From Bacteroidia bacterium (lineage in GTDB: Bacteria > Bacteroidota > Bacteroidia > Flavobacteriales > Flavobacteriaceae), in the NCBI GenBank assembly GCA_030427985.1, contig JAUIBH010000002.1, forward strand, positions 17,423 to 81,422: a stretch of 64,000 nt of DNA. Reading direction: 5' to 3'. The translations under genes and the position numbers were made by a program. This document shows positions 12,086 to 21,116 of this stretch, piece by piece (the stretch's first letter is position 1; each line of letters opens with the position of its first letter). The notes under the pieces are model-generated. The model saw only the letters and a list, made by a program, of their open reading frames with translations. It did no database searches and was not told the origin of the DNA.

Positions 12086-13198
12086 ATGCAAAATTCAAAA
12101 CGCATTCTAGTGGCTCCATTGAATTGGGGCTTGGGACATGCCACACGATGCATCCCCATTATCAATGCACTTTTGGAGCGCGGGTATCACCCTTTTATCG
12201 CTTCGGATGGAGTTGCTTTGACTCTTTTGCAAAAGGAATTTCCAGAGTTGCCTTCTTTTGAACTGCCTTCTTACAAAATCACTTATGCCGAAAAGGGAAA
12301 GAATTTCAAGATAAAAATGATTTGGGATTCACCCAAGGTGCTCAAGGCCATGGCCAAGGAAAAAAAGGCGGTTAAAAAGTTGGTCAAAGAGCATCAATTG
12401 GACGGGATTATTTCAGATAACAGGCTTGGAGTGTATTATAAAAAAGTGCCTTGTGTTTTTATCACCCATCAACTCAACGTACTTTCGGGAAACACTACGT
12501 GGATGAGTTCCCAAGCGCATCAAAAGATTATAAAAAAATTCAACGCCTGTTGGGTACCCGATGTGGAAGGCAAGCCTAATTTGACTGGAAAGTTGGGGCA
12601 TTTAAAAAAGTCCAAACTCAATATCAAATATTTGGGGCCATTGAGTCGGTTTGAGAAAATGGATGTTCCCATAATTTATGATTTGATGGTCTTACTCTCT
12701 GGCCCTGAACCACAACGGACCCTTTTGGAAACGAAACTCTTGAAAGAGCTTCAGCAGTTTGAGGGAAACATTCTTTTTGTAGGTGGTAAAATTGAAGCTT
12801 CTCAGACCAAATCAGAAATCAAAACAGATAAAGGGTCTTTGTTGCACATGAATTTTATGCAATCCAACGAATTACAAACTGGATTGAACCAAAGCGCCAA
12901 GGTTTTGTGCCGATCGGGTTATACCACGGTAATGGATTTGGCCAAGTTGGAAAAAAAGGCCTTTTTTATTCCAACTCCGGGACAATATGAACAAGAATAT
13001 TTGGCCAAACGGATGGAAAAACAAAATTTGGTGCCTTATTGTGATCAGAATGATTTTACGTTGGAACAATTATCCCGAATGAATGATTTTGAGGGGTTGG
13101 CTCAATTTGATTCGGAAATAGATTTTGCAGATTTGTTTACTGCTTTTTCCAAGGTGAATGAAAATTCGGAGCCTACATCTTCTTCACTTTCCACGTAG
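12086..13198 (+). CDS. Glycosyltransferase (MurG-like / UDP-glycosyltransferase type)
   Basis: APLNWGLGHATRCIPII, SGYTTVMDLAKL, PTPGQYEQEYLA. Confidence 0.85.
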   Translation: MQNSKRILVAPLNWGLGHATRCIPIINALLERGYHPFIASDGVALTLLQKEFPELPSFELPSYKITYAEKGKNFKIKMIWDSPKVLKAMAKEKKAVKKLVKEHQLDGIISDNRLGVYYKKVPCVFITHQLNVLSGNTTWMSSQAHQKIIKKFNACWVPDVEGKPNLTGKLGHLKKSKLNIKYLGPLSRFEKMDVPIIYDLMVLLSGPEPQRTLLETKLLKELQQFEGNILFVGGKIEASQTKSEIKTDKGSLLHMNFMQSNELQTGLNQSAKVLCRSGYTTVMDLAKLEKKAFFIPTPGQYEQEYLAKRMEKQNLVPYCDQNDFTLEQLSRMNDFEGLAQFDSEIDFADLFTAFSKVNENSEPTSSSLST

Positions 13199-14864: not shown

Positions 14865-14925
14865 GGGATGGTATTTCTAAGTTAAACGCCCAAATGTAAA
14901 GATAATACTATAACGGGATATATGC

Positions 14926-14994
14926 TTAACATTCATTTAATCTCATAACATTATTGTAACGGTTTTCAAATAAACACTTAACACACAGCTAACA
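14926..14994. promoter_or_regulatory. Candidate Pho-box-like array: TTAACA-type hexamers at 11-bp spacing
   Basis: TTAACA 14926, TTAATC 14937, ATAACA 14945, GTAACG 14956, TTAACA 14978, CTAACA 14989. Confidence 0.5.
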
Positions 14995-15042
14995 TCGCTT
15001 TTACAGCCTGTGGCGTTCTTTGCGCCAAATACTTACCTGATA

Positions 15043-20338: not shown

Positions 20339-20647
20339 ATGAAGCACTTTTACCTTGTCATTTTCTTTTTTGTCTGTGCCCTTGGTTTTTCGCAAGAAAG
20401 TACCTCTAGCTCAGATATTGACGGGTTTAAGTTGTATCCCAACCCCGTTACGCAAGGCAAGGTTTTTATTGAAACCACCGATAATGCCCCCAAACAAATT
20501 CTCATTTTTGATGTTTTGGGCACACAAGTCCTTAAAACCACCATTTTGGGCAAGGAACTCAACCTCTCCCGTTTGGACAAAGGCGTCTATATTCTTAGGG
20601 TTTTTGAAGCTAATAAAGTGGCCACTAGAAAGCTTATTGTCAAGTAG
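20339..20647 (+). CDS. Minimal T9SS type A sorting-domain protein (signal peptide plus CTD)
   Basis: Signal peptide to GFSQ; GFKLYPNPVTQGKVFIE…KGVYILRVFEANKVATRKLIVK; TATCTTTG at 20304 supports the internal Met start. Confidence 0.85.
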   Translation: MKHFYLVIFFFVCALGFSQESTSSSDIDGFKLYPNPVTQGKVFIETTDNAPKQILIFDVLGTQVLKTTILGKELNLSRLDKGVYILRVFEANKVATRKLIVK

Positions 20648-20792: not shown

Positions 20793-21116
20793 ATGAAGAA
20801 ATTCTACTTTGTTCTTATTATGGCTTTACCTCTTTTATCTTATGGTCAAGAGTTGGTCAGTGTAAATACTGAACCTGTACAAGAGCTAAAGGGTTTTAAA
20901 ATGTACCCTAATCCTGCTTATGGTGAGGAAATCTATATCACCACCGAAACCAATGGCAATAAACAAATCAAAATCTATGACGTTTTTGGGGAAGTGGTTC
21001 TAACGGATAGAATCTCAACCAATACCTTAGATATTTCTAGATTGGTCCCCGGGGTCTATGTGCTCCAAGTTACCGAACAAAAAAAGACCATGACCCGAAA
21101 ACTGGTCGTCAAATAA
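20793..21116 (+). CDS. Minimal T9SS type A sorting-domain protein (signal peptide plus CTD)
   Basis: Signal peptide to SYGQ; GFKMYPNPAYGEEIYI…PGVYVLQVTEQKKTMTRKLVVK. Confidence 0.85.
   Translation: MKKFYFVLIMALPLLSYGQELVSVNTEPVQELKGFKMYPNPAYGEEIYITTETNGNKQIKIYDVFGEVVLTDRISTNTLDISRLVPGVYVLQVTEQKKTMTRKLVVK

Follow-up and report, generated by a model that had tools for sequence, protein, structure and literature searches.

A conserved array of 11-bp-phased TTAACA-type repeats as the probable operator of a divergent phosphate-starvation promoter pair in Flavobacteriaceae

Which protein recognizes the TTAACA-type repeats that separate a PhoB-like regulator gene from a TonB-dependent receptor gene, and which promoters do they serve? 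The repeats lie in the 178-bp intergenic region between the two divergent genes in the window, i.e. the whole stretch of 64,000 nucleotides analyzed here, whose draft genome appears, from the named relatives nearest to it, to belong to the Flagellimonas/Muricauda group. A sequence-only reading had described three pairs of hexamers in this region and had proposed that they are the binding platform of the adjacent regulator and define the flavobacterial Pho box. We consider it probable (about 0.86) that the array serves as operator for two divergent promoters controlled by phosphate starvation, to which the PhoB-like regulator is predicted to bind.

The features of the locus are collected in Table 1. 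The NCBIfam families that scored best with the regulator, TIGR02154 (PhoB; 217 bits against a cut-off of 296) and NF053854 (211 bits against 270), stayed under their cut-offs, and the kinase also remained under the curated thresholds (TIGR02966, 237 bits, cut-off 334; NF053855, 157 bits, cut-off 500). The names PhoB and PhoR are therefore based on gene order and on the regulon. In the PhoR-like kinase, neither a PAS nor a large sensor domain was found. The recognition-helix segment GRTIDVHIRKLREK of the regulator hardly varies across the order, which agrees with a conserved half-site. By position and BLAST, the beta-helix-like lipoprotein is the counterpart of Fjoh_0546, form II; it gave no Pfam match and contains a beta-helix-like domain twice in tandem, while single-copy proteins of about 420 aa are present in several relatives. 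The glycosyltransferase and kinase genes are convergent and overlap by 97 bases at their 3′ ends (13102-13198). Two secreted ORFs of about 100 aa (20339-20647 and 20793-21116) contain little beyond a T9SS C-terminal sorting domain (Por_Secre_tail), and similar small proteins are encoded divergently from phoB in several genomes in which the receptor has been relocated (L124, L152-L154).

Table 1. Genes and predicted regulatory elements of the regulator/receptor locus (window positions)
Feature	Positions	Strand	Description
Glycosyltransferase	12086-13198	+	Pfam Glyco_tran_28_C; positional counterpart of Fjoh_0541
PhoR-like sensor kinase, 358 aa	13102-14178	-	Pfam HisKA and HATPase_c
OmpR/PhoB-family response regulator (PhoB-like), 228 aa	14178-14864	-	Pfam Response_reg and Trans_reg_C
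Putative -7 element TATCTTTA, phoB promoter	14897-14904	-	conserved block with sigma-A -7 consensus
Module A	14926-14942	+	TTAACA (14926) and TTAATC (14937), 11 bp apart
Module B	14945-14961	+	ATAACA (14945) and GTAACG (14956), 11 bp apart; probable phoB autoregulatory site
Module C, core box of the receptor promoter	14978-15005	+	TTAACA (14978), CTAACA (14989) and TTTACA (15000), 11-bp direct repeats
Degenerate -7 element GTTCTTTG, receptor promoter	15015-15022	+	consensus TAnnTTTG
TonB-dependent receptor, 949 aa	15043-17892	+	Pfam TonB_dep_Rec_b-barrel, Plug and CarbopepD_reg_2; positional counterpart of Fjoh_0545
Beta-helix-like lipoprotein, 743 aa	17950-20181	+	next to the receptor; BLAST to FII-class proteins of relatives

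The six hexamers of the sequence-only reading match the sequence letter for letter, and the 11-bp spacing within each pair was confirmed. A seventh half-site, TTTACA, had been overlooked, as had the -7-like element downstream of it, with which the feature really ends, not at 14994 as first proposed. In the register 14945 + 11n, five of six consecutive slots are occupied (14945, 14956, 14978, 14989 and 15000) and one is empty (14967, CAAATA). The proposed 11-bp phasing thus holds within the pairs and along this register but not as one uninterrupted phase, because the pair 14926/14937 is out of step (14937 to 14945, 8 bp). In dinucleotide shuffles of the 178-bp region, two occurrences of TAAC words 11 bp apart compare with 0.02 expected (P = 0.0013; P = 0.003 with any period from 6 to 15 permitted), and three occurrences of TAA[CT] words compare with 0.1 expected (P about 0.0003; 0.005 for any period). 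The half-sites are TTAACA, CTAACA and TTTACA; the E. coli-type half-site CTGTCAT was not found in 14865-15042.

Phylogenetic footprinting showed that the array is kept in orthologous intergenic regions, so that the lack of conservation named as a refutation did not materialize. All 30 same-genus loci examined retain it. Among the 46 first-round loci, which include the window's own copy and a few of which share a genome with a locus of the other search, 44 keep the order TTAAC, TTTAAT-like, TAAC, TAAC, TAAC, TAAC, TTTAC with constant spacings of 19/11/22/11 (+11) bp, while the spacer sequences vary. This spacing is found in nearly all same-genus loci and also in Maribacter, Sediminicola and Cellulophaga. 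The array persists in genomes of a further genus (g2, PhoB identity 76–80%); in other families (67–70%) two or three half-sites remain ahead of CTTTGC, and in the f5 group (56–60%) a TTCACA-N5-TTAACA-type pair stands upstream of several phoB genes. It is not universal, since two receptor orthologues (L041, L045) have no array at their promoters.

Rearranged loci allow the modules to be told apart. A second conserved block, GTAAAgATAATAC (14896-14908), the minus strand of which reads the -7 element TATCTTTA, is present only where phoB adjoins. In three genomes in which the receptor has been relocated from phoB (L037, L038 and L046), the full array moved along with the receptor and the GTAAAgATAATAC block did not; the phoB genes of these genomes (L152-L154) retain A and B without C. 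Furthermore, of 13 genomes that lack a TonB receptor gene next to phoB, 9 have a TAAC-N7-TAAC pair upstream of phoB, and five of these nine pairs lie 77–82 bp from the phoB start, where module B is found in the window. This natural dissection suggests that C belongs to the receptor promoter and that B, with A, would also serve phoB autoregulation. As the relocated receptor genes have taken all three modules along, A and B matter for the receptor too. In a close relative (L304, genome G039) with a 99.6% identical PhoB and a nearly identical promoter, DNA identity to the window is about 86% up to 15444 and resumes at 86% from 20205; in between, it carries another receptor remainder and another beta-helix gene with about 40% protein identity. 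The swap looks like a cassette exchange of the outer-membrane receptor under a fixed promoter. A receptor/beta-helix type at about 48–51% is common among same-genus loci.

The loose pattern TAAC-N7-TAAC-N7-TTAC with one mismatch yielded mostly chance matches in the window's own genome, fewer than a reversed control. In 20 of 21 same-genus genomes, a profile of 52 positions built from phoB/receptor promoters only (R1) found a single strong site, that of the phoB/receptor locus, the remainder being weak chance matches; the exception (G007, 83% complete) was also without a phoB match. Within the window, the next best R1 match has an E value of 0.85, which is chance level, versus 2e-17 at the locus. 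Because R1 gave no strong site elsewhere, a family-wide profile was needed (R2, trained on phoB/TonB-receptor promoters only), which was run on 46 Flavobacteriaceae genomes. It gave 52 matches at E≤0.0125, 47 of which lie directly upstream of a coherent phosphate-type gene set: TonB-dependent receptors (17, not independent of the training set), porin O/P (11), beta-helix lipoproteins (10), small CarbopepD proteins (7), PstS (1) and Pit (1). The genes were placed in these classes by eye and by BLAST against representatives, and Pfam was run on the representatives only (PF07396, PF01384, PF12849, PF01865 and PF13715; no match for the beta-helix class). Five strong matches have no phosphate link, and three of the 46 genomes gave no match. 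None of 20 control matches with E values of 0.2–0.32 precedes such genes, many of them lying inside genes (47/52 versus 0/20, Fisher p = 1.7e-13); with receptors and beta-helix genes excluded, the comparison is 20/25 versus 0/20 (p = 1.7e-8). The genome-wide enrichment in front of phosphate genes, which had been proposed as a check, is thus strong. Most R2 sites have no phoB within the stretch that was read, and the signal is therefore not merely phoB synteny. Across the 47 sites, half-site columns carry 1.73 bits versus 0.35 bits in the spacers, and in 47/47 TTTG stands exactly 18 bp from the third half-site. Because the R2 model favors such sites, part of this uniform spacing is built in, which does not apply to the gene functions.

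The second-best R2 site of the window's own genome (C175:26125-26171, E 0.011) is located just upstream of a Porin_O_P gene (PF07396) followed by Pit (PHO4, PF01384), and the third (C97:12447, E 0.012), in front of a thioesterase-like gene, is possibly a chance match. Among six g2 genomes, R2 sites were found at the phoB/receptor promoter, at a beta-helix lipoprotein gene and at a PhoU_div-Pit operon, and in three of the g2 genomes at Porin_O_P genes next to phoBR. Other relatives carry a site before pstS (L240) or before porin-pstS runs (L223, L232 and L241). The Porin_O_P-Pit operon (L261, own genome C175:24600-28200) adjoins a dgt-like gene; in two of the genomes with a receptor away from phoB (L037, L046), the gene upstream of the receptor, read from the upstream sequence, is also dgt-like, suggesting a phosphate-gene cluster at dgt.

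Several other candidates were set aside. The lone TAAC pair upstream of one g2 PhoX gene, in a MauG-PhoX run, is not convincing. TTAACA pairs at DUF4331 genes (L260, L287 and L288) were counted at first, but they are followed by CGTA, and the conserved TTAACAAAACCG...CGTA promoter of these genes resembles an ECF-sigma promoter, which can mimic two TTAACA half-sites. In two genera (L056, contig C153 of the own genome, and L296), gpmI (phosphoglycerate mutase) is preceded by a triple TAAC array with 11-bp spacing, and TAAC/TAAT arrays stand beside ankyrin-repeat genes (L192, L203). Neither kind shows a -7 element at the Pho spacing; both possibly belong to another OmpR-type regulator.

A Pst/PhoU-coupled Pho system was not found in the genus: PstB over its cut-off and the PhoU_div family are each found in 0/21 same-genus genomes, Na/Pi transporters are absent or almost absent, and PhoX is present in 1/21. 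As the genus is without Pst, enrichment of the box can be read not near pst/phoU, as had been proposed, but near Porin_O_P/Pit here and near PstS in relatives.

The proposed mechanism is as follows. At low phosphate, the PhoR-like kinase would phosphorylate the PhoB-like regulator, the dimers of which are predicted to bind head to tail where the half-site T(T/A)AAC(A) recurs as a direct repeat every 11 bp; in the PhoB family, effector domains are known to occupy direct repeats in head-to-tail order, the unit being 11 nt (PMC4415409). Flavobacterial sigma-A -7 boxes read TAnnTTTG at -12 to -5 (PMC9723704), and the position of GTTCTTTG would place the start of the receptor transcript near 15027, 16 bases before the ATG. 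The three half-sites of module C, at about -49 to -22 from this predicted start, would then substitute for a -33 element, and the bound regulator would recruit RNA polymerase to the weak -7 element and thereby turn on the receptor and beta-helix genes. The TA of the consensus is degraded to GT in GTTCTTTG, as may be expected of an activator-dependent promoter. Modules A and B would extend the operator and serve phoB autoregulation, and the same three-repeat box with fixed spacing would act at other phosphate genes of Flavobacteriaceae.

TTAACA-like repeats with spacers of about 5 bp form the PhoP box of Bacillus subtilis. The array resembles this box in its very similar half-site, its 11-bp period and the presence of several half-sites per promoter, but the Bacillus system belongs to another phylum with another promoter type, whereas the regulator here is of a Bacteroidota PhoB-like line. 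As in the E. coli Pho box, tandem 11-nt direct repeats are located directly upstream of the -10/-7 element, a PhoR/PhoB two-component pair is present and phosphate-acquisition genes are enriched among the targets (PMC4415409). E. coli differs in its half-site (CTGTCAT versus T(T/A)AAC(A)), in having two repeats as the recurrent unit instead of three, in its promoter, which has no Bacteroidota -7 element, and in its Pst system, which this genus lacks. A precedent for the word itself is found in Riemerella anatipestifer, a flavobacterial relative: its OmpR-family PhoP has the DAP-seq motif TTTAACA and binds upstream of its own operon (PMC9603813). That study called the motif ArcA-like and reported 583 peaks along with virulence/Bat targets; neither a repeat architecture nor a phosphate regulon is known to have been derived from it. 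We compare this PhoP as a relative rather than as an established orthologue. In a Riemerella phoPR mutant, pstS was up about 8-fold (PMC5399024), which is opposite to simple activation, so that the Riemerella regulator may repress or be non-equivalent. The phoBR locus (PUSIV) of F. johnsoniae shares with the window the order glycosyltransferase, PhoR, PhoB, TonB receptor and beta-helix lipoprotein, and on phosphate depletion its log2 fold changes are 8.02 for the receptor, 9.91 for the lipoprotein, 5.42 for the glycosyltransferase and 3.06 for PhoB; no regulatory site or motif is described there (PMC8115612). OprP lies inside the F. johnsoniae locus, whereas the porin-Pit pair of the window genome is located elsewhere, beside the dgt-like gene.

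Could the array be read in another way? AT-rich intergenic DNA abounds in TAAC-rich words, and the loose pattern indeed gave mostly chance matches; nevertheless the shuffles (P = 0.003–0.005 over all periods), the contrast in information between half-sites and spacers and the functional enrichment refute, for practical purposes, the idea of low-complexity repeats or general intergenic conservation devoid of regulatory meaning. Improbable as well, if less remotely so, is that a different OmpR-family regulator (ArcA-, RprY- or WalR-like) binds the repeats and the neighboring regulator does not. Motifs of this family overlap, as the resemblance between the motifs of Riemerella PhoP and E. coli ArcA indicates (PMC9603813), and the neighboring regulator scores below the PhoB cut-offs. 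However, the targets form a consistent group of phosphate genes, and in F. johnsoniae the counterpart genes are responsive to phosphate but to neither iron nor nitrogen (PMC8115612). The partial array upstream of phoB where no receptor gene adjoins is also what autoregulation predicts.

A variant compatible with the core of the preferred reading, that of a divergent phosphate-starvation operator, deserves more weight, though we regard it as rather unlikely: module C alone would be the phosphate operator, and A and B would bind the same or another protein so as to repress phoB or bend the DNA, with no part in activating the receptor. The widespread regulon sites need just C and the -7 element, and module A does not share the 11-bp register; against this stands the joint relocation of A, B and C with the receptor to sites where phoB is absent. 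The preferred reading of a divergent phosphate operator has a weak point of its own in the glycosyltransferase, which is induced by phosphate depletion in F. johnsoniae; upstream of its counterpart in the window no box was seen by reading, and R1 gave no match there.

Phosphate-stress regulons of Bacteroidota are known from proteomics; an architecture of their Pho operators was not found in the open-access literature, to which our search was confined. The kind of element, a Pho box, is already known, and so is the half-site word, TTTAACA having been published for the related Riemerella regulator (PMC9603813); the claim that the array defines the flavobacterial Pho box therefore stands for the architecture but not for the word. 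We give even odds to the more specific proposal that Flavobacteriaceae use a three-half-site Pho operator with T(T/A)AAC at 0/11/22 bp, rigidly 18 bp from a degenerate -7 element, and that the minimal regulon of Pst-less lineages, this genus among them, comprises an outer-membrane receptor, a phosphate porin and Pit; a PAS-less PhoR would then have to sense phosphate without Pst and probably without PhoU. Such a spacing-constrained box would make the regulon predictable in any flavobacterial genome, would help to label uncharacterized receptors and lipoproteins as phosphate genes and would support a direct test of phosphate sensing by PhoR where Pst is missing.
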